Shown: positions 11,332-43,881 of the stretch, one piece after another
Layout of the letters: the number at the start of each line of letters is the position of its first letter
Position numbering within the stretch: the stretch's first letter is position 1
NCBI GenBank assembly: GCA_029253285.1
Contig: JAQWZU010000115.1
Span: 1-54,149 of the forward strand
Reading direction: 5' to 3'
Length of the DNA stretch: 54,149 bases
Source: Akkermansiaceae bacterium
Lineage (GTDB): Bacteria > Verrucomicrobiota > Verrucomicrobiia > Verrucomicrobiales > Akkermansiaceae
Program-made: the position numbers and the translations under genes
The notes under the pieces: generated by a model
What the model saw: the letters and a program-made list of their open reading frames with translations, nothing else
Told to the model about the DNA's origin: nothing
The model's database searches: none

Positions 11332-11551
11332 GCTCTCACAACACGACTCAAAATCCCCCCTAATTGGCGCAAGTGTTGTTTGAGGCTTTTGTCGTTGTTG
11401 ACGACGGGAATTGTCGAGGTTCAAAAATATATCGCTTTGGGTCGACCGGTCTCATCTTCGGGCGCGACCTAGTCAATGTCGTTTCTGAACGTAAGGATCT
11501 CGTCTTTAGGAATGGCCCTTTCCAGCAGCCGGAAACCTTGCGGGAGTAAGA

Positions 11552-12510: not shown

Positions 12511-12527
12511 TGGATTCGGGGTAGAGG

Positions 12528-13391: not shown

Positions 13392-13440
13392 GGTGACTAA
13401 GGAATAGGAAGGGGGAAGGTTACAAAAAATTAGAACATCT

Positions 13441-13833: not shown

Positions 13834-13844
13834 AAATGAGCGGG

Positions 13845-13873
13845 TTGGAGCATTTTTGTTTTGTGAATAAAAT
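13845..13873 (+). promoter_or_regulatory. Sigma-70-like promoter candidate for the 3D-domain lipoprotein gene
   Basis: TTGGAG (13845-13850), 17 bases, TAAAAT (13868-13873). It is 89 bases upstream of the lipoprotein ATG and follows the end of the MscS remnant. The call rests on consensus similarity only. Confidence 0.35.
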
Positions 13874-13961
13874 TCGGTTGAAAGTTACCAGAAATTACTA
13901 GACAGATAGGGCGTCGCAGGGCACCCAGCCTCTGCGCAGCAAATATCTGCTGTCATAACCC

Positions 13962-16823: not shown

Positions 16824-16846
16824 TCCAACCACACCAATTTTTTCAA

Positions 16847-17323
16847 ATGGCCCGCCACAAGAAAATGCAACGACCCGAAGATGATGAACCGGGTTTGGAC
16901 ATCTCGTCATTGATTGACGTTTGTTTCCTTCTCCTCATCTATTTCTTGGTTACGACCCAGATCGTTAAGAAAGAGCAGGAACTTGATATGGCCATGCCTT
17001 CCAGTATGCCATCTGACACTCCTCCGACGATCACGCCGATGTTGATCACTCTGGAATCCAATGGAGTGATTTCCATTAAGACCGACGGACCTGAAGAGGT
17101 CGTCGAGCAAGATCCCGATATCCGGACGCTGCCGGTTTTAGTTGAGCGGCTTGAGATTTACAAATCAATCGCAGACAATGCCGCGACCAAACCGATCGTT
17201 CAGATCAAGGTGGACGGGGAATCCGAGCAGCAGCGCCTGATCGATATTCTCAACGCCCTGAATCGGACTGAAATCACCACGGTGACCTTCACGGATATTC
17301 TCGATGATACCGACCGGACCTAG
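16847..17323 (+). CDS. exbD: ExbD/TolR family biopolymer transport protein, second copy
   Basis: 158 residues with the same design as its neighbour: a cytoplasmic N terminus, a membrane helix (ISSLIDVCFLLLIYFLVTTQ) with Asp24, and a periplasmic domain ending in LIDILNALNRTEITTVTFTD. The frame is open upstream to 16748 inside the previous gene, but the ATG at 16847 (MARHKKM) gives the correct short N terminus. The periplasmic part is acidic and contains a Pro-rich loop (SSMPSDTPPTITPM), unlike the first copy, so the two ExbDs probably contact different partners. A 15-bp hairpin follows before the TPR genes. Confidence 0.92.
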   Translation: MARHKKMQRPEDDEPGLDISSLIDVCFLLLIYFLVTTQIVKKEQELDMAMPSSMPSDTPPTITPMLITLESNGVISIKTDGPEEVVEQDPDIRTLPVLVERLEIYKSIADNAATKPIVQIKVDGESEQQRLIDILNALNRTEITTVTFTDILDDTDRT

Positions 17324-17343
17324 TTGGCCCGAACTTTCAAAAT

Positions 17344-17383
17344 AACGATGAAGGGATCTAAGAATTTTGATCCCTTCATCGTT
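17344..17383 (+). terminator. Long perfect hairpin after the exbD genes
   Basis: 15-bp perfect stem (AACGATGAAGGGATC / GATCCCTTCATCGTT) with a 10-base loop, 21 bases past the stop of the second exbD. The T-run is weak (TTTC then AAAATT), so it may terminate, stabilise the exbBD mRNA end, or mark a processing site. Confidence 0.6.
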
Positions 17384-17470
17384 TCAAAATTAACCGGAGG
17401 GTTGATGAGCTTTTTCGCTCTCAGCCTTCCTTTTCTGAAAATTACACACCTCTAACCGATCACACACCGT

Positions 17471-20400
17471 ATGACTGCACTACCGACATCTCGCCGTATC
17501 GTAGTAATGATGCTCTTAGTATTCGGAGCTCTTCTGGCTCCGGTTCAGGCTCAAAAACTTGACGATTTATCCAGCCAATCTCTCACTGCCATGCGTGCGG
17601 GTGAGTGGGACAAGGCCAGAGCCCTTTTGAAGAGAGCGACCGATGCCTTCGATAATCGTGCTCCGACTCTCATTGGACCTCGCTTTGGTTGGTTTTGGTA
17701 TCACCAAGGATATTGTGAACTCAAGCTCCGCCTTTTCGATGAGGCAGCGAGGTCTTTCGAAAAGTGCTATAAGAAATATCCCAACAAATCGGGCGTCGAC
17801 GACAAAGCCCAGAGTGTGAACCTTTATCACACCAAATCCCTTCTAATGTGGGGCCATGCCGCGAAAGGCGCGGAAAAATGGGACGAAGCGATCAAGATGT
17901 ATAAGAAGTTCCTCCAGGAACGTGATCCGGGTCGTGACAAATACGAGCGTGGCGTTTTCTACATCAACATGGCGGTCTGTAACTTCAAGCTCCGCAAGAT
18001 CGGAGAGGGGGGGAAGTATCTCGAAACAGCCATCAAGAACAAGATGACCTTCCCGACTCCCAACAAGGGAATCATGACCGCCTTTCACTCGATGGTGGAA
18101 GCTGTCATCGATAAAAAAGACGAGAAGTCACTTCTCGAATTCATTGCCAAGAATCGTGGCCACATTAAACTTGAGCCATTTGAAGCCTACGAATTTGCAC
18201 CGCTCTTCATGAAGTTGGCCCAGGATGCCAAGGCTGCGGAGATGATGAATTCAACCTTTGAGCTCTATGCGCTCGTTCCCAGCACGGTTGGTGCGATTGA
18301 TGACGTGAAGGCCCGGCTTGAGTCGGTGGGCACTTATCCCCGCACAATCAAGGACGGATCGAAGGTGATCAACAAAAAGACTCTTGAGACCGATCTCGAA
18401 TCTCTCAAAGACGCCGACACCAGCGGCAAGATGAACGAGGTATATGCGTTCCTCAATACCGCCGTGATGCACGAGGACGAAGGAAATGTCCGTGGGGCCT
18501 TTGCGGTCTACGAACAACTCGAACTCTACTATCCGAATGCCAAGGTCTACAAAGACAAGAAGGTGGTCGCTGCCCGTGAGAAGAATCTTTACCACTTGGT
18601 GCGGACCTCCTCCATCATCGGAGAGGTGCTCACAACCGAGTTCTACGGAAGCCGTTTTCTGAAGGATTTCCCCAAAAGCGAGCATGTCGAGGAGGTGCGT
18701 CGCATGATGCTCACCAGCCTTTTCTGGCAGGGTGAGTATGAGAAGTGCATCGAGGTAGCGAGCAAGATGATCGACAATCTGGCCAAGCCCTCGGAACAGC
18801 ACGACATCTGCCTCTTTGTTCTCGGTGGAAGTTACCACTACACTGCCCAGTTTGTGGAAGCCCAGCCATTGTTGGATCTCCACGTGAAGACATACGGTGA
18901 CAAGGACACCAAGCAACACCGTCGTCAGGCTGCGCTGTATTTCCAGGCCTCCAATCTTTCACGCCTGCAATACTTCACCAAGTCAGCTGCTCTTCTTGAT
19001 GTATTCCTCAAGAAGTATCCCCAAGCTGGTAGCAACCCATACTATCCCTTCGCTCTCTTTGACCGCGCCAACTGCCACTATGCTGAAAGCGAACTTGAGC
19101 CAGCACTGGTTCTGGTGGGCCGGGTGGAAAATGAATTCCCCGGAGTGGAAATCATGGAGATGAACTTCAACCTGAAGGGAAATATTCTGGAGGGAACGGA
19201 GCAAGCCGATCTCGCGGAAGGCTACTACAAGAAGGCTCTCGAAATGGCCGAGCGTAAGCAAAATGAAATGGTGGCGGGTGAGGCCCTCTTCTATCTCGTG
19301 AATGTCATCGGTATGGCCAAGGTGGACAATAAACCCGGACCTCGTGTTGAGGAATCCGTACCCTATTACAACAAGTTCTGGGAGGAATACGGAGCCGACT
19401 CACCCTACAAGGTGAAGGTTGCGGTGGCTGGTCTTCCCGGAATGCGTGTCGCTGGAAAATTTGATGAGGCCTTGGAGCGTCTCCAGGGGGTCATCGCCGA
19501 TCTCGCCAGTGTCCCGGGTGCCCCTGATTTGGAAGCCGCTGTTGGCTCATACACCGAGGCCTATCTTGAGACTCACACTCCGGAGGAGTTAAAGGACCAC
19601 TATTATAACTTCCCACGAATTAAATCGAGCGACATGGCCGCCCGGGCACTTCTTCGCGTTGCGATCATTGGTGTCTTTGAGGAGGTGAATCACGACGCGG
19701 TTCAAAAGAAAGATACCTCGCGTGAAGCAAGCTCTCGTGCCATGGTCAAAGTTCTCTTCAATGAGTTGAAAAACGATTTCGATTTGAAAGATCTCTCAAA
19801 TTACATCCTTGTGCGAGTGGGTGAGTTCATCCGAAAGAAGAGCGCGACTCCTCTTGAAGCCCGTCCATACTACGAGCAAGCTCTCAGTCGTGACCAAGAT
19901 CAGAGTTACAAATTCCCGGCCCTTTTCGGGGTTGCCGATATTCTCGGTCGGGGGACAAATTCCCAGAAAGATGAAGCGATCAAGTATCTCCAACGGGTCC
20001 TTGATGACGCCGAAGAGAAGTCTCAGAAAGAAGATGCTCTCATGCGCATGGTGACTGTCCTTTATGACAAAAAGGACTTCGCGGGAGCGATTGCCAAGTC
20101 GAGATTGTATCTCGAGACAGATGGCTTCAAAAAGTCTCGCGGCGAAGCACGCTTCCTTCTTGCACAGGCCTATGACGGCAATGGTCAGACGGAAGACGCC
20201 CGGGTGAACTTCGGACTTCTCTGGGGATCAAACCTGGGATTAATTCGGGTTTCCGCTCCATCCATTAAACGTTGGTTGGAGCTCACCTGGGATCGCAATG
20301 GCGATAATCCCAAGGTTGGTAAAAGCGACCGTCAGCTCGCCTATGAGAAGGGTTGGAAATATGTTGATATGACCCGCCGCTTGATCCCGAAGATGAATGA

Positions 20401-30681: not shown

Positions 30682-30816
30682 TGTTGAGTTTTTGGGTTTG
30701 TATTCACGATGTAAGCGACGTGCCGCTGGAAGTTGTTGGGGAATCTTGTTTCTTCCACAAATTTTTCAAGTCGAAAGTTGATTGGCAACGTGGGGCTAAT
30801 CTGCGAGGAATCGAGT

Positions 30817-31731
30817 ATGAAATTGCGAGCGGGAGTTGCCGGGGCTGGATCGATGGGAAGAAATCACGCCAGATGCTACTCTTTGATCGAAGAAGCCGAG
30901 TTGGAAGCGGTCTACGATGCTGATTTGGAGCGTGCTAAAGCGATTGCAGAGGAATTCGGGGCTGAAGCGGTGGATTCTCTGGAGGCGCTGGCCGAAGCCT
31001 GTGATTTGGCGAGCGTCGCCGTGCCGACGGTGGCTCATTTGTCTGTTGGGGGTGAATTAATGAGGCGGGGAGTTCACGTTTTGATGGAAAAACCGATTGC
31101 GCCCAATGTGGAGGAGGCCCAGGAATTGGTGAAATTGGCCGGGGAATTCGATCGCATTCTGCAAGTCGGACACATCGAGCGCTTCAATCCAGTGATGCGG
31201 GAGCTGGAGGCCAAACTGCATCAACCCAAGTTCATCGAGGCCCACCGACTCTCGCCCTTTCCGAACCGGAGCATTGATATCGGGGTGGTTTTGGATCTCA
31301 TGATTCACGATTTGGAAATCATTCTCCACCTGGTCAAGTCGCCGGTGGAAAGTATCGATGCGGTTGGAGTGCCGGTGCTCATGAAAAGCGAGGACATTGC
31401 CAATGCCCGCCTCAGATTTGAGAATGGCTGTGTCGCCAATGTCACGGCAAGTCGGATCAGTCCGGAACGACTTCGTAAAATTCGAGTCTTTCAGGACGAC
31501 GGCTATCTTTCGCTCGATTATCAGGAGCAGGCCGGGGAAATGTATTGGAAGGAGGGCGGGGAGATCAGGAAAGCGCCAGTTGAAGTTGAAAAAGACGAAC
31601 CGCTCAAGTTGGAACTCTCGGCCTTTGTCGAAAGCGTGCGGGATGGCAAGACTCCGGCGGTGACCGGTCAGCAGGGAACAGATGCTCTCGCTATTGCCTT
31701 TAAGATCACGGAGATGATCATGGCTTCGTGA
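30817..31731 (+). CDS. Gfo/Idh/MocA family oxidoreductase
   Basis: 304 residues, an NAD(P)-dependent sugar dehydrogenase. The Rossmann motif GVAGAGSMGRNHAR lies at the N terminus, EKPIAPNVEEAQELV near residue 90, and VGHIERFNPVMRELE near 110. That last pattern resembles UDP-N-acetylglucosamine 3-dehydrogenases (GnnA type), but the reaction is not certain. The catalytic-type Asp/His pair (VLDLMIHDLEI) is present. The start at 30817 has a good ribosome-binding site (GAGGA, 8 bases). The 3' end overlaps the convergent sulfatase-GH43 gene by 14 bases. It is divergent from the ABC operon with 135 bases between. Confidence 0.92.
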   Translation: MKLRAGVAGAGSMGRNHARCYSLIEEAELEAVYDADLERAKAIAEEFGAEAVDSLEALAEACDLASVAVPTVAHLSVGGELMRRGVHVLMEKPIAPNVEEAQELVKLAGEFDRILQVGHIERFNPVMRELEAKLHQPKFIEAHRLSPFPNRSIDIGVVLDLMIHDLEIILHLVKSPVESIDAVGVPVLMKSEDIANARLRFENGCVANVTASRISPERLRKIRVFQDDGYLSLDYQEQAGEMYWKEGGEIRKAPVEVEKDEPLKLELSAFVESVRDGKTPAVTGQQGTDALAIAFKITEMIMAS

Positions 31732-34645
31732 TTTCCAGATCTGAAAAGGTCGTGGGGATGTCGACGACGCGGAGGCCGATGGTTCCTTTTTGGTAGTCCT
31801 TATCGGCGTGGGTGAAGAGTTGGCTTCCGTTGAGGGAGATCGTGAATTCGGGGCCGATACCAGTAACGCTGAGTTGGTGTCTTTTTGAAACGTCGATCGG
31901 GAGGGTGATCCGTCTCAGCTCCTTCCAACCGGAGCCGTCCATTTTCCCGAGGAGGACGGAATTTTGGCTGGGTTTAATGCCGACGAAGTAGCCGCGGTGG
32001 GCATCGTATCCGACGGATGGGGCGGTGACGCGGAAAAGGAGGCCAGCACCGCGGCCCTTGCGATTGTTGTGGAAGTCGAGAGTAACTGAAGCGGTGAAGT
32101 CCCGGGGGGCTTGATCGTGGAGGACAATTTTTTCTCCAGAACGGTAGTCGTTGATGAGTTTGCTTTGTGGGGATCCCAAGCGAAGGCCGTCATCGGTGAC
32201 TTGGTAGAACTGATGGTGGCCGTAGAGAGAGTGATCGGATCTGAGGTCGGAGCGGTAGGGCGGATTGAGCTGTGATGCTTTCTCTCCGGCTGGCCGGGGA
32301 TGAACTTGACCTGATGGGAATGGTCTCCCGAAGAGGGGGCGGCCGTCTCGGTGGAACTTGAAGGGTTGGACAAAAATGGCGCGTCGCCAGCCGGGTTTGG
32401 GGTCGCGCTTGGCGTGGAAGATGTGCCACCATTCAGATCCGTCTGGTGACTTGACGAAACAGGAATGACCGACGCCGAAGGTTTCCTTGGATGATTGGAA
32501 GATGCTCCCTTTGCGTTTTTTCCAGGATGCGGGATCGAGTGGATCGTCACCGGTGAGTTCGAGTTGACCGAGTTTGTAGCTGGGCAACCAGGAAGCACCG
32601 CAGGAATAGATGAGATAGGTATGTTTGCCATTCTTGAGAACCTGTGGCCCTTCATTCAGGCCGCGGCCGTTTGCGCCGCCTTCAGTTTTCTCCCACGGAT
32701 AATCGAGGTTGTTGCAAATGCGCACGCGTTTGCCGGCGAGCTTGGTGGGTGAGGCCATTTCGGCGATGTAGAGAAATTGTTGGTCGGTTTCTGGCCCGTC
32801 CCATCCGGACCAAATAGCGTAGAGTTTGCCCTTATGCTCGAGCGGGGTCATGTCGATGGCCCAGAGGTTTTCTTCTTCGGAGTCGCCGGTTTGAAATGGT
32901 CCGTGGAGTTCATAGCCGCTGAGAGGGTCTTTGGTTTTCGACTGAAGAACGTAGGCGAGATGGTTTTTATTTTGGCCGTCGGAAGCGGCGAAGTAGATAT
33001 GCCACTTGCCGTTGAGGTAGTGGAGTTCGGGTGCCCAGACCTCTTGGGAATAGGGTCCGGTTTCCGGAGCTTTCCAGACGAGATGTTTTTGACCGAAGGA
33101 GGTCAGGTTCTTGCTTGTATGAATTGAGATGCCGCGATTGCCGTCGGAAAAACACCAGAGATAACGCTCGTTGTTGGGGTCGCGAATAACCCAGGGATCA
33201 GCTCCCTCGCCGATGGGGTTGACGAATTGATTGTCCGGGAGCGCGCCGACTTTGGCGTAGTCGGGGTGGCTGCCGTCGACGGGCATCTGCTTGTTCCAGG
33301 CGCGAAGGGCTTTGTCGAGTCGGGCGACGAGTTCAGGATGCTTTCCGGCGAGGTTTCTGGTTTCACCGGGATCGGCGGGAAGGTTGTAGAGCTGAGGTGT
33401 CGAGCCGTCATGGTTGACGAGGTATTTCCATTTGCCCTCTCGGACCGCAAGGTCGGGATTGTCTTCATCGAATCCGTGACCAAAGCCCGGGCGGTCGGGT
33501 GGGCGTCGCCAGAAGATTGGGGCCTCGCGGGAGGCGGTAGATTTTCCGACGAGGGTTTGCGAGACGTCCTCGCCGTCGAGTTTCTGAGAAGGTTTGGTTC
33601 CGGTGATTTGGTAAAGGGAACGGTTGAGATCAATGGCGCTAAAAACGGAGGAGTCGTTGGTGCTGCCGATTTTTTCTTTGGGTATGAGACCGGGTGCCCA
33701 GACGACGAGAGGGGAGCGAATACCGCCTTCATACATCCATGTTTTTGCTCCGCGGAAGGGACGGGAGGTGCCGGCACCAGGCTCGTGGCCGTTGTCGGAG
33801 CAGACGGTGATGATAGTGTTGTCGCGGAGCTTAGGGTCGTTGCGAACACGGTCGAAGAGGCGAGCGAGTTGCTCGTCCATGGAGTCGAGGACGCCATTGT
33901 AGAGCGCGCGTTTGCTGCCGCCCCATTTGTCAAGTGGTGGCCAGAATGGACCGTGGACATCGTCAGGCCAGAGGTTGATGAAGAAGGGCTTTTCTTTAAT
34001 CTGTGATTTATCGATAAATTTGAGCGCTTCCTCAACGAAGCCGGTAGTGATTTCGGAACGCTGCATCCACTTGAACCCTTCACCAAGTCGTTCGGCATCG
34101 GCCCAAATTCGTCCCGTGATGGGGTCACCGCCCTTGGGGTTGGGTTTCATGGTGAGCGGAAGAAGTTTGGGACCAATTCCCTCAAAATTGGTGAGTGATT
34201 CATCAAAGCCATAGGATGGGATGGCTGGAGCATCGGCGACGTCGCGTTGCCCGCCCATATGCCATTTGCCGAAGTGGCCGGTGGCGTAGCCGTGGGCTTT
34301 GAGCTGTTTGGCCAGAGTAGGTGCATTGGGATCAAGCCACTGGGCCATGCCGCGCTTACTATTGTCACGACGATTATTGAGATAGGAGGTGATGCGATAG
34401 CGATGCGGGTATTGCCCCGTGGTGAGCGCGACGCGGGAGGGTGAGCAAATGGGAGAGTTGACGTAGAAATTGGTGAACTTGATTCCCTCCGATGCGAGGC
34501 GGTCGATGTGTTGGGTTTTCACCGTGCCACCAAAGCAGGAGAAGTCGGAGTAGCCCATGTCATCGATGAAGACGACGATGACGTTTGGCCTGTCTTGGGA
34601 ATGAAGCAGGAAGCTACTAAGTAAAAAGGCGAGGAGAGATTTCAT
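31718..34645 (-). CDS. Sulfatase-GH43 fusion protein with C-terminal beta-sandwich
   Basis: One unbroken 975-residue frame. Domains in order: a signal peptide (MKSLLAFLLSSFLLHSQDRP); a full sulfatase (about 18-455) with IDD metal ligands near 28, CSPSR with Cys67, GKWHMGG and SDNG; a GH43 five-bladed propeller (about 475-785); and a C-terminal beta-sandwich (about 795-975) similar to LamG or GH43-appended domains. The three GH43 catalytic acids are visible: Asp483 in GEGADPWVI, Asp598 in WAIDMTPLEH, and Glu665 in NEGPQVLK. It probably removes sulfate and arabinosyl or xylosyl groups from the same glycan. This is a secreted two-enzyme chain. The end overlaps the convergent oxidoreductase gene by 14 bases. 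Confidence 0.93.
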   Translation of the reverse strand: MKSLLAFLLSSFLLHSQDRPNVIVVFIDDMGYSDFSCFGGTVKTQHIDRLASEGIKFTNFYVNSPICSPSRVALTTGQYPHRYRITSYLNNRRDNSKRGMAQWLDPNAPTLAKQLKAHGYATGHFGKWHMGGQRDVADAPAIPSYGFDESLTNFEGIGPKLLPLTMKPNPKGGDPITGRIWADAERLGEGFKWMQRSEITTGFVEEALKFIDKSQIKEKPFFINLWPDDVHGPFWPPLDKWGGSKRALYNGVLDSMDEQLARLFDRVRNDPKLRDNTIITVCSDNGHEPGAGTSRPFRGAKTWMYEGGIRSPLVVWAPGLIPKEKIGSTNDSSVFSAIDLNRSLYQITGTKPSQKLDGEDVSQTLVGKSTASREAPIFWRRPPDRPGFGHGFDEDNPDLAVREGKWKYLVNHDGSTPQLYNLPADPGETRNLAGKHPELVARLDKALRAWNKQMPVDGSHPDYAKVGALPDNQFVNPIGEGADPWVIRDPNNERYLWCFSDGNRGISIHTSKNLTSFGQKHLVWKAPETGPYSQEVWAPELHYLNGKWHIYFAASDGQNKNHLAYVLQSKTKDPLSGYELHGPFQTGDSEEENLWAIDMTPLEHKGKLYAIWSGWDGPETDQQFLYIAEMASPTKLAGKRVRICNNLDYPWEKTEGGANGRGLNEGPQVLKNGKHTYLIYSCGASWLPSYKLGQLELTGDDPLDPASWKKRKGSIFQSSKETFGVGHSCFVKSPDGSEWWHIFHAKRDPKPGWRRAIFVQPFKFHRDGRPLFGRPFPSGQVHPRPAGEKASQLNPPYRSDLRSDHSLYGHHQFYQVTDDGLRLGSPQSKLINDYRSGEKIVLHDQAPRDFTASVTLDFHNNRKGRGAGLLFRVTAPSVGYDAHRGYFVGIKPSQNSVLLGKMDGSGWKELRRITLPIDVSKRHQLSVTGIGPEFTISLNGSQLFTHADKDYQKGTIGLRVVDIPTTFSDLEITKP

Positions 34646-36313: not shown

Positions 36314-36336
36314 AGGCTTGAGCCTACTATTTTTTC
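36314..36336 (+). terminator. Weak terminator-like hairpin in the 16-base gap between convergent genes
   Basis: AGGC-TTGA-GCCT (4-bp stem) followed by ACTATTTTTT, just past the stop of the propeller gene. The stem is short, so the call is weak. Confidence 0.3.
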
Positions 36337-38264
36337 GGGTCGACTTCGAAGTTGAGGAGTTCGACTTTTCCAGCAAAGGAAAAGGGAGAGGTATACATGC
36401 CAACCGGTGATTCCGGGTCGGATTTAAGAGTCTGACCTTCATTCGGGTTTTGGGAAATATGCCCGAGTTTCTTACCGGTGAAGAGCGGGCTGTCGTCGAG
36501 ACTTAGGATGTCGATAATGATACGCCCTCGCGTGTTGAGCCCTAACGAGATTGTAAATTCCTTTTTCGGCCGGTAATGCTCGACGACGAGGGTTTCGAGT
36601 TCTTTGTTTCGACGCACCGCGAAGTGAATCTCCCCATCTCTCATGTAGAGGGAATAGCCGTGGTGGTCACCTCCATGCGAAATGATGACGCCATCTGTTT
36701 GCTTGGGGTCGGGGGTGACTTTTAAGGTGACTCCAAATGAACGATTGGTGATGTCGGGGTGTTTTTTGTAGGTGGTCTTTTTTGAGGCCTTTCGCGTGAA
36801 TGGAGAATCCCGGGGAATCTTGCAGTTCTTGGCGACAGATTTTGGAAGGTGGGAGGCAAGGCGTTCACGAGTCGCTTGGTGGTCAGCGTGGGTAGCCAGG
36901 TTGTTGAATTCATGGGGGTCGGTTTCTAGATCATAGAGCTCCTGGAAACCATCGGCGTATTTGATGTAGCGATAGCGATCATCGGAGAGAGCATGAGACG
37001 GACTTTCCGATTTCATATCCTTGTTGAAAACAAAAGAGGTGAGGGATGGCTGTGATTTCGCAGTCGAGGGGGCTTTGAGTTGGGGAACCAGGGAGGTTCC
37101 AGTGCATTGCTCGGGAACCGGGAGTCCGGATAGTTCACAGAGGGTGGGATAGAGGTCGGTGAGAGTCGCGGGTTGGTTCGTAGATACTCCGTCCTTGGAA
37201 ACCCCCGGGGCGTGAATGAAGAGTGGGGTGTTGGTGGTTTGATGCCAGAGCGCGAACTTTTCCCAGTTGGATTTCTCGCCGATGTGGAATCCGTGGTCGG
37301 TCCAGAGAACGATGATGGTATTGTCCTTCATTGGAGATGATTCAAGCGCGTCGAGGAGTCGCCCGAGTTGGTGGTCCACATAGCTGATACTGGCGAGGTA
37401 GCCTTGCATGAGAGACTTCCACTGATCGTTGTCGGTGACCCATTTGTGCCAAGAAACCCGGTCAGCGGGGCGGGCGTCGGCGAGGTCATTTTTGATGTCG
37501 GCAGGAAGTTGAACCTTGTCGAGTGGATAGAGGTCGAAGTATTTCTGGGGGACCTCGAAGGGAATATGCGGGCGGAAAAGCCCCACCGCCAGGAACTGTG
37601 GTTTGGCGGGTTGCTTTTTGAGTTTTTCGATCGCCCAATCAACGACGAGATGATCTCCGTAGCTTTCCTCGGCTTGCGGGAGGGGCGCCGCTCCGAAAAG
37701 AAAATTGCCCAGTGGGCGTCGTCCTTTGAAGCCGTGGTTTTCGTTGTTGGAAAACTTCGGCCTTGGCCAGTCGGCGGAAATGGGGTCGAGGGGATCACCC
37801 CGGTATTCGTCCCAGGCCAAGGGATCGTTTTGTGAGTCATCAGGAGTCCATTGCAGGGTGTGGAAGATTTTTCCGGCTCCCGCGCTGTGGTAGCCGTGAT
37901 TGCTGAAGTGCTTGGAGAGAACAATCGCGTTGGAGAGAACAGGCGACTCGTGGCGCCATCGCGGACCATGTGCTCCGAAGAGGTTGCGATAGATCCCTGA
38001 TTTGACAGGATGCACGCCCGTCATCACCGCCACACGCGAAGGGTGACAAGCTGGAGCGGCGCAATGGGCGTTGGTGAAGGTGACGGATTGTTTGGCGAGG
38101 CGATCGAAGTTGGGTGTGATGACCCCCGGGTGCTTTGCGAGAGGTGAGATATAATTATTAAGATCGTCGACCGAGATGAAGAGGATATTTGGTTTTGCCT
38201 CCTTGCCTAATGCACCCAAGGGAAACAACAAGCATGGTAGAACTTGCTTTAAAAGTGATCTCAT
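36327..38264 (-). CDS. Sulfatase (iduronate-2-sulfatase-like) with extra C-terminal domain
   Basis: 645 residues, longer than the usual 450-550. It has a signal peptide, ISVDDLNNY metal ligands near residue 33, CHPSR with Cys73 as the formylglycine precursor, a later LWTDHGFHIGEKSNWEKF metal/substrate site, and NTPLFIHAPGVS. The IDS-like DDLN and WTDHG patterns suggest the iduronate/uronic-acid sulfatase group. The last 150 or so residues (after KKTTYKKHPDITNRSFGVTL) form an added beta-rich domain (SHGGDHHGYSLYMRDGEIHF, then FSFAGKVELLNFEVD) resembling a LamG-type carbohydrate-binding fold. It is the last gene of the minus-strand run from the phosphoesterase, after the esterase gene and a gene remnant. 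Confidence 0.93.
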   Translation of the reverse strand: MRSLLKQVLPCLLFPLGALGKEAKPNILFISVDDLNNYISPLAKHPGVITPNFDRLAKQSVTFTNAHCAAPACHPSRVAVMTGVHPVKSGIYRNLFGAHGPRWRHESPVLSNAIVLSKHFSNHGYHSAGAGKIFHTLQWTPDDSQNDPLAWDEYRGDPLDPISADWPRPKFSNNENHGFKGRRPLGNFLFGAAPLPQAEESYGDHLVVDWAIEKLKKQPAKPQFLAVGLFRPHIPFEVPQKYFDLYPLDKVQLPADIKNDLADARPADRVSWHKWVTDNDQWKSLMQGYLASISYVDHQLGRLLDALESSPMKDNTIIVLWTDHGFHIGEKSNWEKFALWHQTTNTPLFIHAPGVSKDGVSTNQPATLTDLYPTLCELSGLPVPEQCTGTSLVPQLKAPSTAKSQPSLTSFVFNKDMKSESPSHALSDDRYRYIKYADGFQELYDLETDPHEFNNLATHADHQATRERLASHLPKSVAKNCKIPRDSPFTRKASKKTTYKKHPDITNRSFGVTLKVTPDPKQTDGVIISHGGDHHGYSLYMRDGEIHFAVRRNKELETLVVEHYRPKKEFTISLGLNTRGRIIIDILSLDDSPLFTGKKLGHISQNPNEGQTLKSDPESPVGMYTSPFSFAGKVELLNFEVDPKK

Positions 38265-38322
38265 AAGTAAAGATACTGAGAACTCTTGAGAAATTTGACA
38301 GGCTATTTGTCGGATGTGGCAG

Positions 38323-38439
38323 CTAGTGAAGGGAGAAATGGAAGTCGGCGGGCTTGACCGCGAGGGTCGAGTAAGGGGTTTGGATGTGTCCCTCGGCGCT
38401 GGTTCCGAGAAAGTGGCGGCGATTGATTGTTAAAATCAT
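38323..38439 (-). pseudogene. 38-codon stub with Tat-type N terminus overlapping the CE15 stop
   Basis: The ATG (38439-38437) overlaps the stop of the CE15 gene as ATGA, a usual coupling signal. The peptide begins MILTINRRHFLGTSA, a twin-arginine export start, but then runs straight into EGHIQTPYSTLAVKPADFHF and stops 3 codons later. A Tat signal fused to what looks like a C-terminal tail fits an in-frame internal deletion of a formerly coupled secreted-enzyme gene. What the lost gene was cannot be stated. Confidence 0.5.
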
Positions 38440-39578
38440 TTAAGGTGTTTGTCGCCGAAGTTGAGATACTGATCCCAGTCGTAGTCGGTGAGATCGTGTT
38501 TTCCAGATCTGATGTGGTAGCCGACGTGACCGGAAAGAATGGGCCTGTCTGGAGCGGGCATTTCCATGGTGGCGAGTCCTTTGAGACCGAAGAGATTGTA
38601 GACGGGCTCGGCGTGGGCGGCGGCGAGGAATTCACCTTTGGGGTCGGCCCAGTCGTCTTTGGTTGCGCTGGCAACGTAAACCGCCCGGGGGGCGATGAGC
38701 GCAATGAGTTGGTGTTGGTCGATTGGAAGGTCCTCTTCTTTCTCGTTGAAAGCGTTGTAGTTTCCACAAAACCAATGGGGGAACGATTTATTAATGCGTG
38801 CGACGCGTTCGCCGTGTTTGCGACGAGCGATGGCAGCTCCGGTGCACCCTGAGTTGTTGGAAATGGTGAGCGCGAAACGTTGGTCGGTGGCTCCGGCCCA
38901 GAGGGCGCATTTGCCTCCCCGGGAATGGCCGATGACGCCGATTTTTAAAGCGTCGATGTCGGACGTGCTTTCGAAGTAATCTAGCGCGCGGGAAGCCCCC
39001 CAGGCCCAACCGGCGATGGTGCCCCAGGCGTCGCCGGGACGTTCACTGGTGTGTTGGTCGAAGACTTTGTGCACGCCGTTGTCGAAGTTGAGGTTTTTGT
39101 CGGTGCTCAATTCGGAGTTGTGGAAGGTTGCGGCAACAAAGCCTCGGGAGACGATGGTTTCCGCAGGCCAGAAGTCGTCTTTTTGATTGCGAGTAGGATC
39201 AATATTCTCCCGGTCCCGGTTGCAGATGAGGAGATATCCCGGAGCGGGCTTCTTGGCTTTGTTCGGGATAAAGGTGATGAGCTTAAAGGCACTTTTGCCA
39301 CTGGGGCCGGAGTAGGAGATTTCGACAATCTTTAGCGTGGCTGCGCCATCCATGGCTTTGGGGTCTTCTTCGATGACTTTGAAGTTGAGATCCTTGGGGT
39401 TTCCAATGGGAGCGCGTCCGTAGACGTGTTTCTTGAAGAGCTCGAGGGTTTCGGGGCGTTGGGTTTGAGTCCACTCTTCCTTGTTCTTGGCCGGTGGAGT
39501 GCCGAGGACGTTGGGGAGTTCTTGGGCGAGGGTGTTGCTTAGGGGGAGGGTGCAGAGGAGAATCTTAAAAGGAGACAT
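38436..39578 (-). CDS. Glucuronoyl esterase, carbohydrate esterase family 15
   Basis: 380 residues. An alpha/beta-hydrolase that cleaves ester bonds between glucuronic acid side chains of xylan and lignin alcohols in plant cell wall, or similar uronate esters. It has a signal peptide (MSPFKILLCTLPLSNTLAQ). The bacterial CE15 nucleophile block GHSRGGKCALWAGATDQRFA contains Ser219, followed by ISNNSGCTGAAIARR. RINKSFPHWFCGNY and the C-terminal HIRSGKHDLTDYDW with the catalytic His are also present. The frame is open upstream to 39686, but the ATG at 39578, preceded by GGAGA on the minus strand within a normal distance, gives the signal peptide. Confidence 0.92.
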   Translation of the reverse strand: MSPFKILLCTLPLSNTLAQELPNVLGTPPAKNKEEWTQTQRPETLELFKKHVYGRAPIGNPKDLNFKVIEEDPKAMDGAATLKIVEISYSGPSGKSAFKLITFIPNKAKKPAPGYLLICNRDRENIDPTRNQKDDFWPAETIVSRGFVAATFHNSELSTDKNLNFDNGVHKVFDQHTSERPGDAWGTIAGWAWGASRALDYFESTSDIDALKIGVIGHSRGGKCALWAGATDQRFALTISNNSGCTGAAIARRKHGERVARINKSFPHWFCGNYNAFNEKEEDLPIDQHQLIALIAPRAVYVASATKDDWADPKGEFLAAAHAEPVYNLFGLKGLATMEMPAPDRPILSGHVGYHIRSGKHDLTDYDWDQYLNFGDKHLK

Positions 39579-39592
39579 AGTTTTGAGGTTGG

Positions 39593-39703
39593 TCAGAGGA
39601 TAAGAGTCTCTGCTACGGGTTTGATACAGATTATTTCGAGTGAGTTGACGAGGGCCCAGATGAGGTTTTCGAATTGTTGATGCCAAGCGGGAGCGATGTG
39701 ATT
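39593..39703 (-). pseudogene. Possible remnant of a DUF1553 (PSD1) protein C terminus
   Basis: In the 189-base gap upstream of the CE15 gene, one minus-strand frame reads AWHQQFENLIWALVNSLEII before a stop at 39593. The pattern ENLIWALVNSxE closely resembles the C-terminal WALLNSxEFLFN motif of DUF1549/DUF1553 planctomycete-type cytochrome proteins. The frame is closed by a stop just upstream (39704-39706), so at most about 37 codons survive. The match is short and could be chance. Confidence 0.3.
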
Positions 39704-39767
39704 CTAGGCTGATCCTAGAAGTAGCTCACTGGGTTCCTTTCGAAAGCAGTTGAATCATTTGATCGAT

Positions 39768-42700
39768 TTAATCATCATTTGATTTGGCAGGTCGTATCGG
39801 AACCTCGCAGAAGGTGAGCGCTGCGATGTTATTTGAGCCCCAGATGATGGCGTCTTCCTCCCTCCATTTCCCACCGTTGACGTAGGACAGAGTCTTTGCT
39901 GTTGAGGGGTCTGCCAGTTTCAAGGTGATGATTCTTCCGGAGCCGCCTACGGCGATTAGATCCGCCGAGAGATCATCGAGAGAGAACCGTTCGATGATTT
40001 CTACGTCCCATTTTACCTCTTGATCGAATGTCAGGGTGATTTCATCTTGTCCGGCGCTGGAATACGCGACGCTCTCAAGATTTGGCGCTGTGACGGACAC
40101 CTTCGAATCCGCCCCGTAGCTGTATTTGTTCACCAGCGGAAACAACTGCCTCGCCATCGCGCCATAGCCTTCCGCCAAAAAGTGGCAACCGCCGCCCGGC
40201 CGGATTCCGAGGGTCGACATGACGCTCATATTGGAGAACTGCTCGGGCAAAAGTCGCTGCTGCTCGCGTAAGCGGTCGTTCTCCACTGACCGGCTACCAC
40301 AGGCGCCCGGCCAGATCTGGTGGATATAGTAGTGTTTGATATTCGGGTAGTCCTGCTTCCAGCTTGCAGACATGTGGATGAAGTAGTCCTGATAATTCAC
40401 CCAGCCGAAAGCGCCGGTTGTCCCTGACTCACCTTGGTCGTTTTCTCCCTGATGCCACAGCACGGCGCGAACTCCGTGCGTCAGTTTCGCTTGCTGCAAA
40501 CGCCATAACAACCTGCCGTAGATGGTGGTCACGTCAGTGGGATCTGCCTCGTTGCGTTGGTGCTGGTCAATCCGCGTTCCACCCTGTGCTCCATTGATAA
40601 TACAGACGGGAACCTTGTGTTTTTCGATGAGCATTTTGCCCAATTCAACGCCCCAATAGCCAATCTGAAAATGGTGATGATTCTCTCCTCCGTTAAAAGA
40701 TAAGGCATTACCCCAGACCGCGTCTCGGGCTCGGGCCTTGTTCGTGCTTGGCGTGCCAAAGCTGCGCAGCCAAGGGCTTCGGTAAGGGTGGACAACTCGA
40801 TTGTCTGTCCAGGCTTCAGCATTGGATTGGCCTTGGATGATAAAGACGTCGCCGCAGACCAGATCAGTTGCTTTTTCCAGAATTGTTTCCGCGCCGTCAC
40901 GCTTGATGCCGAACTCCGTGCGATAGGTGACCAAGCCCGCCTGCAAGCTTGTGGACAAATCATATTTGTTGGCGGCCCCGATTTTTTGCCTCTGCGTGTC
41001 GATCAGCTTGTTGCCGTCATAGAGTCTCAGGAATACCGAATCAGCAGATTCCTTGAGCGCGCCTCGATAGTGAAGTATGCCCTGCCCATTGTCGTCGCGA
41101 GCGTAGAACTGGTGGTCTACCGGTTTCTCGTCGGCGGAGGGAATACGCTTCATCGAGGCATCCTGCTTCGGTTCGACAACGGAGATCCGGACGGAGCGCG
41201 ACACGGTGGCTCCACCATTGTCGAGGGTGAGCTCGATCGTCAGGTCTCCACTGTTCTGGGCCCGCTTCAATATTAACTCTCCCGTGCCGACTTCGCTGAT
41301 CGTAGCCATGCCCGAAACTTTCCATGAGTAATTCAAGTTGCCGGTTCCTTTGGACGTCATTTCTGCCAGATTGCTGATTGAAGGTGAGATCGCCAGTTCA
41401 TCCCTGCCATTCCACTTTTTGGGAGCCTTGAGCGTGTATGTGGGATCCGAGATGTTCTCTTGAATGGAGATTGGGATGGTTCGGGTTTTCACACCGGATG
41501 CGAAAACCGCTCTGACCTGCAATGTGACGGTTTTGTTTTTAGCAACCCGACCAGCGTCAAAGGTATAGTTGAAGCGGTCGACGGCCAGGATCTCCTCCTT
41601 GTCGCCATCTTGCAAAACCCAGTAGACCTTTCTTGCTCCTCCCGCTTTTGCCGACAGAGCGACCGAGGCTCCTTCCTTCATTACCAAGCGTGACTCTGAG
41701 ACCGAGAAGTCGTCGCCATCCTGAACAAGTGGTCCAACCAGTGACTGTAACGGCTTCTGGTTCTCGAAACAGAGTTTAATCCAGTTGGCCGAGCGGGCCA
41801 CTGATTCGAAACGCACCTCGTCGAGAGCGCCATTAAAAGGTCCGCGCCCGTTTCCATGATCACCCAAATCGACGGGCGTTGAGGGCGGGGTCTTCAAGGT
41901 GCCGAGCTTGCTCACCATTCCGCCGTTGTTATTGATGGTCTTCTTAAGAATACCATCAACGTAAAAGCGTACCATGTCTGCGGAGACGCCCAGTGCGATA
42001 TGCCGCCATTCATCACGGGGCAAGGGACTGGCGCATCTGGGGTCAAAGCCGTAGAGATGTAAGCGAGGCTGTCCTCTTCCGGTCATGGTTAGATAGGACA
42101 GACCCATGTTTGGCTTCTGTCCACGTTCCGGCTCACCCCATCCTCCAATCGTCGCCGCCGCCCAGTTGCGACCCTCGAAACTGTTGGGGTTAACCCAGGC
42201 CGACATCGTCCGGTCGGCGTTGCCCGAGGGCATGCAGGTCACCCGTCGATCCGGCTTGGCTCCGAGTGGGCGGATGACAAGAACTTTATTAAGGCCGAAC
42301 TCCTGAGCGTCGCCGATGATGCCGGTGGTATTGGTGGTCGGTTTGTCGGATCTGTTGAAGCCGTCCAAATTGTTCGAAGTGGCGTCTTTTAGGTTCTCAC
42401 CCAAATGCCAGACACCGGCGAACCCTTTCGTGGTCGGGAACACATCCTCGCCGTTGCTTTCGCTGGGAACCTTGTCATTGCCCCAATGCACCTTGATCGC
42501 CTGTTGGTCGTTTCCCTTGATTGTCGGGATCCGCACCCAAATGTCGGCATTGCCTACCGCGGCATCCCAACGCTCGATCTGGTAAGTCAGTGGGTTGCCA
42601 TTGGCGGAGAAGCGGATGTCCTCGCCTCGGGACTTCGCCTGGCTGAAATCGAAAGAGTCCCGGTTAAGACGGACCAGCAGAGGGAAGTCTTTTTCCAAGG

Positions 42701-42878
42701 CTGATGCGGGCAGGTTCGCTCCCCCGGAGGTCGTGACGATGTATATCGTGCCTGAGTGTTTCCAGTCGTTCATGTCAGCGATGGCTTGGGAAGGGCTGAT
42801 AAAAACGCTAATCAGAGCAGGCGCCAGCAAGGACTTAGAAAGAGGAAAGTCAAAGAGGTCGTATATGGTGCGTATCAT
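39768..42878 (-). CDS. Secreted DUF2341 / LamG / SASA carbohydrate acetylesterase-like protein
   Basis: 1,036 residues. Order of parts: an N-terminal signal region; a DUF2341 domain (about 60-145; PLLVRLNRDSFDFSQAKSRG then NADIWVRIPTIKGNDQQAIK); a LamG/concanavalin-like domain (about 155-375; GFAGVWHLGENLKDATSNNL); Ig-like beta modules (about 390-570); and a C-terminal SGNH/SASA sialate-O-acetylesterase-like domain (about 670-920). The last has GQSN with the nucleophilic Ser near residue 683, LWHQGENDQG near 811, and the His of GCHFLAEGYG near 897. It probably binds a polysaccharide and removes acetyl groups from it. The metallophosphoesterase gene ends 13 bases upstream, so the two are one operon. 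Confidence 0.9.
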   Translation of the reverse strand: MIRTIYDLFDFPLSKSLLAPALISVFISPSQAIADMNDWKHSGTIYIVTTSGGANLPASALEKDFPLLVRLNRDSFDFSQAKSRGEDIRFSANGNPLTYQIERWDAAVGNADIWVRIPTIKGNDQQAIKVHWGNDKVPSESNGEDVFPTTKGFAGVWHLGENLKDATSNNLDGFNRSDKPTTNTTGIIGDAQEFGLNKVLVIRPLGAKPDRRVTCMPSGNADRTMSAWVNPNSFEGRNWAAATIGGWGEPERGQKPNMGLSYLTMTGRGQPRLHLYGFDPRCASPLPRDEWRHIALGVSADMVRFYVDGILKKTINNNGGMVSKLGTLKTPPSTPVDLGDHGNGRGPFNGALDEVRFESVARSANWIKLCFENQKPLQSLVGPLVQDGDDFSVSESRLVMKEGASVALSAKAGGARKVYWVLQDGDKEEILAVDRFNYTFDAGRVAKNKTVTLQVRAVFASGVKTRTIPISIQENISDPTYTLKAPKKWNGRDELAISPSISNLAEMTSKGTGNLNYSWKVSGMATISEVGTGELILKRAQNSGDLTIELTLDNGGATVSRSVRISVVEPKQDASMKRIPSADEKPVDHQFYARDDNGQGILHYRGALKESADSVFLRLYDGNKLIDTQRQKIGAANKYDLSTSLQAGLVTYRTEFGIKRDGAETILEKATDLVCGDVFIIQGQSNAEAWTDNRVVHPYRSPWLRSFGTPSTNKARARDAVWGNALSFNGGENHHHFQIGYWGVELGKMLIEKHKVPVCIINGAQGGTRIDQHQRNEADPTDVTTIYGRLLWRLQQAKLTHGVRAVLWHQGENDQGESGTTGAFGWVNYQDYFIHMSASWKQDYPNIKHYYIHQIWPGACGSRSVENDRLREQQRLLPEQFSNMSVMSTLGIRPGGGCHFLAEGYGAMARQLFPLVNKYSYGADSKVSVTAPNLESVAYSSAGQDEITLTFDQEVKWDVEIIERFSLDDLSADLIAVGGSGRIITLKLADPSTAKTLSYVNGGKWREEDAIIWGSNNIAALTFCEVPIRPAKSNDD

Positions 42879-42891
42879 CTTTTAGATCAGG

Positions 42892-43881
42892 TTACTTCTC
42901 GGTTGTCCCAAGCTGCCGACTGCGAATTTTCGGGCAAATCTCCTTGCCGTCGGTTAGGTCAGGCTTTGCCGCAATCCCAAGTTGTGAGGGGGATTTACCG
43001 ACCCATTTACTCTCCCGACCCTTGACGTCGATGCGTCCGCTGACAGGGTCAATGGTGAGTGTGGTGAAGAGGCTATCGCGATAAGGGCAGGTGTACTCGA
43101 CCCAACGGAACTTGGAGTGAACCTCGGCCGGGTAGCTCTTGTTACGGTAAGAGCCACCGACCCATTTATAGGAAGCCGAGTTGACGTGTAGGTAAGAGAT
43201 CTTACCCACACGGGCCACATGATCAATGTGAGTGTGCCCGTTGACAGCCAAAAGAACCTTGTCGGCAGCTGAGTTCAATAGCGCCTGCACCTCTCCAGCG
43301 TTGTCGATACTTGATGGGCCCGCGAGAGGCTGATGGCAGATGACGAGAATCGGGCCCTTAAGGATTTTCAACTGTTTCGCGAGCCACTCAAGTTGTTTCT
43401 CTCCAATGTGAGAAGGATAACCGCCCTTGTGGTTTTTCGGCTTCTCGTTTCCATCGAGGACAATCAGGTCGAGACCGTTAACGTTCTCGGTGTAGTAGCG
43501 TCCCTTCATACCCCAGAGTTTCGCGACCGTATCAAAGGAGTGTCCCCCATCGATCTCGTGGTTTCCGAGAACATGGAGGGTTCTGCGATGCGCCTTTTCA
43601 AAGGCCTTGGTTACGGCCTCGTTTTTCTTTGTCGGATAGGCGAAATCGCCGAGTTGTAGAAGAGCGTCGGGCTTTTCTTCCTTCATGGCATCGAGAAATG
43701 CTTTCAGTCTCGCAGGGCCATCGTGCATCACGTCCTGGTGCAAATCGGTGATCATGCCGAGCTTGATGGGCTTTTTGATTTTGGCCAGAGTGGCCATGAC
43801 CTGCCGGGGCAGGATGATTGAGGTCGCCACTACGCCGGTGGTGCGCAAGAAGTCACGTCTTGATGAGCTAAATTTTTCCAT
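42892..43881 (-). CDS. Tat-exported metallophosphoesterase (calcineurin-like)
   Basis: 329 residues. A twin-arginine signal (SSSRRDFLRTTGVVATSIIL) is followed by the dinuclear-metal phosphoesterase motifs: DLHQD near residue 46, GDF near 79, GNHE near 106, CHQPLAG and NGHTHIDH. Expected activity is phosphomonoester or phosphodiester hydrolysis outside the cytoplasm after folding with metal inside. It ends 13 bases before the DUF2341/LamG/acetylesterase gene, which it heads in an operon on the minus strand. The link to polysaccharide breakdown is inferred from this position. The 726 bases upstream are gene-poor. Confidence 0.93.
   Translation of the reverse strand: MEKFSSSRRDFLRTTGVVATSIILPRQVMATLAKIKKPIKLGMITDLHQDVMHDGPARLKAFLDAMKEEKPDALLQLGDFAYPTKKNEAVTKAFEKAHRRTLHVLGNHEIDGGHSFDTVAKLWGMKGRYYTENVNGLDLIVLDGNEKPKNHKGGYPSHIGEKQLEWLAKQLKILKGPILVICHQPLAGPSSIDNAGEVQALLNSAADKVLLAVNGHTHIDHVARVGKISYLHVNSASYKWVGGSYRNKSYPAEVHSKFRWVEYTCPYRDSLFTTLTIDPVSGRIDVKGRESKWVGKSPSQLGIAAKPDLTDGKEICPKIRSRQLGTTEK

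Follow-up and report, generated by a model that had tools for sequence, protein, structure and literature searches.

The marine Akkermansiaceae bacterium analysed here encodes a 975-residue protein in which a family S1 sulfatase, a GH43 glycosidase and a CBM66-like beta-sandwich are joined in one uninterrupted frame on the minus strand (ATG at 34645, stop at 31718; positions refer to the window, the whole 54,149-nucleotide stretch of DNA that was analysed). We consider it somewhat probable that this protein is a two-step exo-enzyme, which would desulfate and then hydrolyse one and the same terminal pentose, more likely arabinofuranose, while its carbohydrate-binding module holds chain ends. 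The modules follow one another from a signal-peptide-like start through the sulfatase, a short linker and the GH43 propeller to the C-terminal sandwich:

34595..34645, minus strand: signal-peptide-like N-terminus, residues 1-17 (hydrophobic start)
33284..34594, minus strand: family S1 formylglycine-type sulfatase domain, residues 18-454 (Pfam PF00884, fold match, invariant active site)
34445..34447, minus strand: codon of Cys67, formylglycine precursor in C-S-P-S-R (47-sequence alignment)
33227..33283, minus strand: linker of nearly constant length, residues 455-473 (alignment of 47 homologues)
32285..33226, minus strand: GH43 five-bladed propeller, residues 474-787 (Pfam PF04616, fold match, invariant triad)
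33197-33199, 32852-32854 and 32651-32653, minus strand: codons of the GH43 catalytic residues D483, D598 and E665, respectively
31721..32284, minus strand: CBM66-like beta-sandwich, residues 788-975 (CBM66 sequence and structure match)

Domains and active sites of the fusion protein

An earlier note on this DNA had described a single frame at 31718-34645 carrying a sulfatase, a GH43 glycosidase and a third domain, and this description is borne out throughout. A frameshift or misassembly at the junction is ruled out, since the same one-frame fusion occurs in other assemblies, including 15/15 genus genomes that have this GH43; GC content per 100 codons runs from 0.52 to 0.59 along the gene, and the junction is no outlier. 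In an alignment of 47 sequences (homologues 52-95% identical), the stretch from P455 to F474 spans 19-25 residues in 47/47. Invariant columns start at P20-N21, after the signal-like stretch, and the predicted model (pTM 0.66) places a low-confidence helix at residues 4-12; the protein is probably secreted or periplasmic.

The sulfatase domain matches Pfam Sulfatase (PF00884; residues 20-349, E 7e-44) and SGSH_C (residues 301-450, E 5.8e-7), and its predicted model superimposes on the S1 fold of 7stv (Z 39.5, r.m.s.d. 2.8 over 401 residues). The active-site features listed for family S1 (PMC11760155), mapped onto the fusion via alignment to a solved sulfatase, are all present: the maturation motif C/S-x-P-x-R as C67-S-P-S-R71, with C67, P69 and R71 in 47/47 sequences, and the metal ligands D, D, D and N together with the sulfate-binding K and H as D28, D29, D284, N285, H231 and K301. 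K127 and H129 are likewise found in 47/47. The host genome holds 124 sulfatase-family matches and eight family-level matches to the formylglycine-generating enzyme (FGE) family (PF03781, best 1.1e-71), which may include a true FGE. NCBIfam yielded generic sulfatase models only, each under its cut-off. The nearest solved sulfatases, the kappa-carrageenan 4-O-sulfatase AMOR_S1_16A (9fo1) and a Pedobacter yulinensis sulfatase (7stt), are 28-32% identical to the fusion and have the core active site in common with it. Assignment to subfamily S1_16 was rejected, because the Trp characteristic of S1_16 (W79 of AMOR_S1_16A) pairs with Tyr88 in a pairwise alignment, in a column that holds Tyr in 41 and Phe in 6 of the 47 sequences.

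Beyond residue 470, where the earlier note had placed a GH43 fold, both domain and structure searches find one: PF04616 matches residues 476-770 (E 2.5e-43), and the predicted model forms a five-bladed propeller that superimposes on 9nxg (Z 39.4, r.m.s.d. 2.0, 302 residues), 3akf (Z 39.3) and 5m8b (Z 39.0). The triad of Asp base, Asp pKa modulator and Glu acid is present as D483, D598 and E665, aligned with solved enzymes. These three nearest solved folds (Z 39, r.m.s.d. of about 2) are the exo-1,5-alpha-L-arabinofuranosidases SaAraf43A (3akf) and AtAbf43C (9nxg), both of GH43_26, and the Lactobacillus brevis enzyme 5m8b, which we take to belong to GH43_26 as well. They share the catalytic triad with the fusion and are 29-35% identical to it; unlike the fusion, they have no sulfatase, and SaAraf43A and AtAbf43C carry a CBM42 whereas the fusion carries a CBM66-like domain. 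Identity to AtAbf43C is 28-32%, and that to 5m8b reaches 35%. AtAbf43C is 49-63% identical to ten characterised GH43_26 enzymes (PMC12493170), as against 29-35% between the fusion GH43 and the arabinofuranosidases, a comparison of pairwise identities that leaves the fusion GH43 a possible member of GH43_26 and counts against the mechanism proposed below. A Foldseek search with the whole model listed 5joz first, with the beta-xylosidases 6ms3 and 5z5d close behind (TM-scores of about 0.5 over propeller plus sandwich). The fusion holds the sole GH43 of the host genome.

The C-terminal domain is CBM66-like both by sequence and by its predicted beta-sandwich fold. The CBM66 structures of Bacillus subtilis SacC levanase (4b1l, 4azz and 4b1m) match by sequence with E 5e-8 to 6e-8; they are of the same fold and sequence family and about 20% identical. 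The domain modelled alone has a pLDDT of 93.4 and superimposes on 4b1m with Z 23.0 over 159 residues, versus 19.0 for the next non-CBM66 entry. The CBM66 of SacC levanase binds fructan. Past residue 770 of the window protein, Pfam gave no match up to E 1. A 3-keto-disaccharide hydrolase domain (PF06439) was considered and set aside: it matches weakly and in relatives only (27.0 and 27.5 bits in loci L034 and L079, against a cut-off of 26.8, and 23.9, below it, in L032), and the CBM66 structures fit better.

The residues D28, D29, C67, P69, R71, K127, H129, H231, D284, N285, K301, D483, D598 and E665 are identical in 47/47 sequences. Thus the catalytic residues that the earlier note had named (Cys67 in CSPSR, Asp483, Asp598 and Glu665) are correctly placed and invariant, and its impression that both enzymes look active is upheld as far as intact, invariant catalytic centres indicate activity. 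It is very improbable that one of the catalytic domains has become inactive, leaving in effect one enzyme to which binding domains are added. Although predicted structures fall short of proving catalysis, every catalytic and metal-binding position examined is invariant.

Architectures and genomic context among relatives

Fusion-type GH43 domains (E <= 1e-40) are present in 15/27 genus genomes and lie in a fused frame of 961-1188 amino acids in all 15. This count refers to this GH43 only; the whole Pfam family matches 19/27 genus genomes, and several of those matches are other GH43-like frames outside the fused count. Among 79 named loci, mostly from Verrucomicrobiota and Planctomycetota, 54 have a single frame that encodes both sulfatase and GH43, of which 34 are sulfatase-GH43, 18 have an extra N-terminal sulfatase and 2 are partial frames. 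In this longer form, a second, S1_8-like sulfatase precedes the S1-GH43 chain; the extra sulfatase has a C-x-P-S-R motif in 16/19 cases, and none was found in L031, L032 and L046. The combination S1-GH43-CBM66 was found in two bacterial phyla. Evidence from a draw of 387 genomes, taken evenly across the phylum, is against a wide spread of the fusion: the GH43-CBM66 part (E <= 1e-60) occurs in 7, of which the host alone is fused, the remaining six lying in frames of 363-566 amino acids.

The two activities can evidently be used apart: 22/79 loci have the sulfatase but not this GH43, and three genomes of a related genus have GH43-CBM66 by itself. In the sulfatase tree, moreover, fused and unfused rows are interleaved, with nine label changes, one of which stems from L077, a contig-cut locus counted as unfused. 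These observations favour an explanation in which the two catalytic domains have separate target residues or glycans and no fixed order of action, their joining serving only co-secretion and co-localisation. We nevertheless regard this as unlikely, given a linker that is short and nearly constant in length, a pairing kept in 15/15 genus genomes with this GH43, and a split form that remains together: in L072, sulfatase, S1_8-like sulfatase, GH43-CBM66 and aldose 1-epimerase are four consecutive genes. In addition, the final stretch of the unfused sulfatases L065 and L068 looks like the beginning of GH43, pointing to a fused ancestor from which GH43 was lost. In L016, the fusion has an epimerase and a sodium:solute symporter as direct neighbours, and in L010 an epimerase lies nearby.

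Three further genes belong to the local surroundings in the window:

36327..38264, minus strand: separate S1 sulfatase (Pfam; also next to the fusion in the two nearest species)
38436..39686, minus strand: glucuronoyl-esterase-like gene (PF22244) of the same local cluster (Pfam; order in L009 and L055)
39768..42878, minus strand: DUF2341, laminin-G and SASA acetylesterase-like gene of the same local cluster (order in L009 and L055)

Of the loci compared, only L009 and L055 retain this order, which is evidence against a conserved operon around the fusion. Sulfatase domains were found in 18/66 and 11/74 neighbour proteins, counts from selected loci without a background control. An adjacent Gfo/Idh/MocA gene, considered as an L-arabinose dehydrogenase, was dropped; its best solved match, 7bvj (E 5e-53), lies far above the next (2e-18), an NAD-binding oxidoreductase. 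Two short direct repeat pairs were found and, in a search for inverted repeats, none; promoter-like sites numbered 1 (2.1 expected) and terminator-like sites 11 (5.6 expected).

Proposed mechanism and target sugar

The functional coupling of sulfatase and glycosidase that the earlier note had proposed is judged probable. From the domains, catalytic residues, predicted folds, conserved fusion, FGE-family genes in the host and split-gene form that are observed, we infer a secreted enzyme with the following reaction order, exo mode, sugar and CBM ligand. The cell's maturation enzyme would oxidise Cys67 to formylglycine, and the S1 domain would then cleave the sulfate ester on the pentose at the non-reducing end, or on an adjacent residue, of a marine sulfated glycan of algal type. 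GH43, as an inverting exo-glycosidase, would next cleave the unmasked terminal pentose, with the CBM66-like domain holding chain ends near. In relatives with an S1_8-like second sulfatase in the chain, a second sulfate may be removed. The invariance of both active sites (47/47), the fusion of the pair in 15/15 genomes and the adjacent genes of L072 speak for this mechanism; its order, desulfation before cleavage, is likened to that of Formosa P36.

The target may be either of the two pentoses that the earlier note had named, alpha-L-arabinofuranose, for example in a sulfated alpha-1,5-arabinan, being likelier than beta-D-xylose. By sequence, the five top-ranking GH43 enzymes of solved structure comprise four with the title arabinofuranosidase and one (3k1u) with the title beta-xylosidase; AtAbf43C and SaAraf43A have exo-1,5 activity (PMC12493170), and Codium has a sulfated alpha-1,5-L-arabinofuranan (PMC4178480). 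Stieleria sedimenti, which is related to two carriers, and one more Stieleria are listed as users of 'arabinose', isomer not given (PMC9692418), and GH127 beta-L-arabinofuranosidase-type domains occur in 2/66 scanned neighbour proteins.

With beta-D-xylose as the sugar, the two-step logic would be the same, the sulfatase desulfating xylose in a sulfated xylan or in the Xyl2S units of ulvan, with GH43 as a beta-xylosidase. We hold this to be doubtful, although several observations beyond the title of 3k1u favour it. Xylose isomerase is found above cut-off in 22/27 genus genomes, host included, versus no L-arabinose isomerase (AraA, PF02610) in 27/27 genus genomes or 20/20 named genomes, so that released L-arabinose would lack a canonical route in the genomes examined. 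Growth on D-xylose is reported for two carriers, Stieleria tagensis TO1_6 (L040) and S. mannarensis JC639 (L038), and the relevant passages of their descriptions (PMC10541342, PMC12254169) do not list L-arabinose with the sugars. The ulvan pathway includes a GH43 (P27) and an S1_8 sulfatase (P32), and Xyl2S is present in ulvan (PMC8511951); XylR-like regulators adjoin the fusion in L029 and L053, as do the glucuronoyl-esterase-like and acetylesterase-like genes in the window. However, xylose isomerase does not track the fusion (13/15 genus genomes with it, 9/12 without). Nor does a galactokinase-type signature, present in 24/27 genus genomes, separate carriers; a fucose-isomerase C-domain occurs in 1/27.

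Most such sulfatases have no assigned substrate, and a natural fusion pairs one sulfatase clade with one glycosidase, so that the product of one site can lead to the substrate of the other. Because L-arabinose isomerase is missing from every carrier examined, the choice between arabinose and xylose is directly testable, and the answer would identify the sulfated pentose glycan on which these bacteria feed. Tentatively, marine Verrucomicrobiota and Planctomycetota may share a dedicated single-chain machine of one or two sulfatases, GH43 and CBM66. Its target would be a polymer of sulfated pentose, and the sugar released would be metabolised without the known L-arabinose isomerase. If so, either a sulfated xylose glycan would be met by a GH43 of arabinofuranosidase-like lineage, or a sulfated arabinan would supply an unrecognised arabinose route, and the spread of the machine would mean that the sea contains an abundant sulfated pentosan that has been overlooked.

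Relation to known systems

The earlier note was aware of no characterised example of this pairing, which agrees with the open papers searched: neither the S1-GH43-CBM66 form nor the tandem-sulfatase form was found characterised there, or in any laboratory test. By contrast, sulfatase-glycoside hydrolase fusions as a kind are established, and GH43 matches inside planctomycete sulfatases were already present in PMC4807772 (2016). That work describes multi-domain sulfatases of Porphyra-associated planctomycetes, with many GH43 hits, and GH117 hits as well, inside sulfatases and with two-sulfatase proteins, and reads GH43 and sulfatases as distantly related families; these sulfatases may include the S1-GH43 architecture, its relevant passages giving no boundaries, residues or function for such a fusion. 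Kiritimatiellales, also of the PVC superphylum, have fusions of the same kind, S1_7 with GH10 or GH32 and S1_15 with GH29 (PMC6388578), which are annotation-based, with GH43 unnamed in the main text.

In Bacteroides plebeius, the S1_8 sulfatase must precede the GH43_24 exo-galactanase on arabinogalactan (PMC8406133). Sulfate removal is thus a prerequisite for GH43 cleavage of a sulfated glycan there too, but BpS1_8 and BpGH43_24 are separate proteins, GH43_24 acts on galactan, and the substrate is a sulfated arabinogalactan protein. Formosa agariphila P36 (S1_25-GH78) of the ulvan pathway, whose domains, assayed separately, act in consecutive steps (PMC8511951), likewise combines a sulfatase and an exo-glycosidase in one chain, and both catalytic modules are present in the fusion too. 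P36 differs in sulfatase subfamily, in having GH78 instead of GH43, in acting on rhamnose and not a pentose, and in that its domains were analysed separately; in P36 itself, the non-reducing end is desulfated and that sugar is then removed.

Domain composition and active sites

The S1 sulfatase-GH43 fusion is encoded by an uninterrupted 975-residue open reading frame on the minus strand of the window (34645-31718), and residues 1-17 look like a signal peptide. Pfam assigns the following domains:

Residues 20-349, Sulfatase
Residues 301-450, SGSH_C
Residues 476-770, Glyco_hydro_43

In an AlphaFold2 model based on an alignment of 47 sequences (mean pLDDT 85.7, pTM 0.66), the sulfatase region resembles S1 sulfatases of known structure (7stv, Z 39.5; 6prm, 38.4; 9fo1, 37.4), and the GH43 part matches solved GH43 enzymes titled either beta-xylosidase (3k1u, 39.3) or arabinofuranosidase (9nxg, 39.4; 3akf, 39.3; 5m8b, 39.0). 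The C-terminal 188 residues, modeled separately (pLDDT 93.4), resemble the CBM66 module of SacC from B. subtilis, with Z 23.0 across 159 residues versus 19.0 for the best non-CBM66 entry, an assignment that agrees with the sequence match (E 5e-8); some relatives show weak C-terminal matches to a 3-keto-disaccharide hydrolase domain as well. The P455-F474 stretch spans 19-25 residues in 47/47 sequences and has no long flexible tract.

The catalytic residues named in the earlier note from the sequence alone, Cys67 in the sulfatase and Asp483, Asp598 and Glu665 in the GH43 domain, were confirmed at these positions. Both sites look active, because across the 47 aligned sequences, the other 46 of which share 52-95% identity with the window protein, the sulfatase residues D28, D29, C67, P69, R71, K127, H129, H231, D284, N285 and K301 are invariant (47/47), as is the GH43 triad (47/47). 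Eight matches to the FGE family in the host genome (best 1.1e-71) make maturation of Cys67 in the host plausible. The best solved relatives of the sulfatase by sequence are 7stt, 9fo1 (S1_16) and 6ust. A Trp described as a hallmark of S1_16 (PMC11760155) aligns with Tyr88 in the fusion, with Tyr in 41 and Phe in 6 of the 47 sequences; membership of S1_16 was rejected on this position, and the sulfatase carries no subfamily label.

Distribution and history of the fusion

The S1-GH43 fusion is genuine and conserved. Of the 27 genomes examined in the host genus, 15 contain a GH43 of the fusion type (E <= 1e-40), which in all 15 shares a frame of 961-1188 aa with the sulfatase. The fusion is also clade-limited, since the GH43-CBM66 part (E <= 1e-60) occurs in 7 of 387 genomes drawn evenly across the phylum and is fused in the host only. 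The host genome contains no second GH43 at E 0.001; further GH43-like matches are present in some sister genomes. Its 4.3 Mb hold 124 sulfatase-family matches versus this one GH43, and two long frames (C77, 1086 aa; C159, 995 aa) carry two sulfatase matches apiece.

From a scan of genome contigs the best 79 of at least 585 confirmed loci were kept, and this set is therefore biased to full-length matches. The labels of loci L031, L048, L056 and L077 were assigned by hand.

Architectures among the best 79 of at least 585 loci (S, sulfatase)
S-GH43: 34
Additional N-terminal sulfatase plus S-GH43 (long form): 18
S-GH43 with one domain truncated at the contig end: 2
Sulfatase without fusion-type GH43 (includes L061 and L080): 22
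Tandem sulfatase without GH43: 1
Modules as separate genes: 1
GH43 without sulfatase: 1

Within these best 79 of at least 585 loci, 49 of the 54 fused ones have a CBM66 match. Fused loci L048, L051, L058 and L077, whose frames leave the contig, have none, nor does the fusion of L057 (labeled Kiritimatiellae), which stops after GH43. The other labeled fused bins are Verrucomicrobiota or Planctomycetota, and a few have no phylum label. Named carriers include Stieleria tagensis TO1_6 (L040), S. mannarensis JC639 (L038) and Roseibacillus ishigakijimensis (L027).

The extra N-terminal domains of the long form share 56-92% mutual identity while spanning two phyla, and 16 of 19 contain a simple C-x-P-S-R motif; for the sole one tested, from L034, S1_8 sulfatases are nearest among solved structures (E 5e-39). 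A part resembling this extra sulfatase is carried by L080. At locus L072 there are four consecutive same-strand genes:

8357-9886, sulfatase
9890-11332, second sulfatase, 48% identical to the long-form extra domain
11389-13035, GH43-CBM66
13025-14290, aldose 1-epimerase

The occurrence of the modules both in a single protein and in a gene row argues for a joint function of the S1, S1_8-like and GH43-CBM66 modules.

Other arrangements were also observed. L052 has a fusion without the extra domain and a separate sulfatase (16782-18395) 57% identical to it. L061 (9692-14308) encodes a different fusion, in which a same-clade sulfatase is followed by another sulfatase and a weakly matching GH43 (residues 1229-1450), a pairing that apparently arose independently. 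In L026 (5153-14203), the tandem sulfatase-GH43-CBM66 occupies the second half of a 3017-residue single frame, the first 1600 residues of which may be a non-coding open frame.

In quick trees of selected loci, with many weak forks, fused and unfused sulfatases are intermixed (82 rows), and 54 of 62 GH43 rows are fused. The unfused sulfatases of L065 and L068, which group with fused L022, have C-terminal tails resembling the start of GH43, which suggests that GH43 was lost from a fused ancestor at least in this group, the tails being a possible scar; in other branches, fusion may have occurred repeatedly.

Substrate sugar and gene surroundings

Arabinose is kept ahead as the sugar released, with xylose as the main rival. 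Four of the five best solved GH43s by sequence (5m8b, 9nxj/9nxg, 3k1u, 5m8e, 3akf) are titled arabinofuranosidases, which speaks for arabinose and against xylose. Also for arabinose, the ten characterised GH43_26 enzymes reportedly act on alpha-1,5-arabino-oligosaccharides or arabinan (PMC12493170), and a sulfated alpha-1,5-L-arabinofuranan is found in Codium (PMC4178480). Identity to those arabinofuranosidases is just 29-35%, and the GH43 domain was therefore not filed under GH43_26.

Counting against arabinose and for xylose, L-arabinose isomerase, searched as the PF02610 (AraA_N) family alone, gave no match in the 27 genus genomes or in 20 named genomes of unstated completeness (19 with the fusion, and that of L072 with the split form), two of which (L010 and L024) are probably the same species as some of the 27; 5 of 14 well-known genomes matched as a positive control. 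Xylose isomerase exceeds the cut-off in 22/27 genus genomes (13/15 with the fusion, 9/12 without), and a fucose-isomerase C-domain was found in just one of the 27. The carriers Stieleria tagensis TO1_6 and S. mannarensis JC639 use D-xylose for growth, and one also D-arabinose, with L-arabinose not named for either in the parts of these sources consulted (PMC10541342, PMC12254169); Stieleria sedimenti and another species in the same table are listed as users of 'arabinose' of unstated isomer (PMC9692418). Ulvan contains Xyl2S, and its pathway includes GH43 and S1_8 enzymes (PMC8511951).

Neighbors of the fusion gene in the window are as follows:

30733-31731, Gfo/Idh/MocA oxidoreductase gene (nearest solved match 7bvj), convergent with the fusion gene and overlapping its 3' end by 14 bases (31718-31731)
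36327-43881, one strand, genes for a separate sulfatase, a glucuronoyl-esterase-like protein, a DUF2341-LamG-SASA protein and a metallophosphatase

The first three genes of the latter cluster are kept in L009 and L055, and the row was not recognised in any other compared locus. Elsewhere, the fusion of L016 has both a sodium:solute symporter gene and one for an aldose epimerase as neighbors, and XylR-like regulators adjoin the fusion in L029 and L053; an epimerase lies close to it in L010 and adjoins GH43 in L072. Farther off in the window (4627-7995) is a 1122-residue protein that combines DUF7133 with HEAT repeats and matches cytochrome c at its C-terminus.

Comparison with known sulfatase-glycosidase systems

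Sulfatase-glycosidase fusions are a known kind, of which no characterised S1-GH43 example was found in the open-access papers searched. Many GH43 hits lie within planctomycete sulfatases, and from such hits GH43 and GH117 were read as distantly related to sulfatases (PMC4807772); domain fusions of the S1-GH43 type may lie behind that reading. S1_7-GH10/GH32 and S1_15-GH29 fusions are known from annotation (PMC6388578), and S1_8 desulfation prior to GH43 action is known in separate proteins (PMC8406133). The S1-GH43 fusion is probably a two-step exo-enzyme. The already known Formosa agariphila fusion P36 differs in joining S1_25 to GH78, and its domains, assayed separately, act consecutively (PMC8511951).
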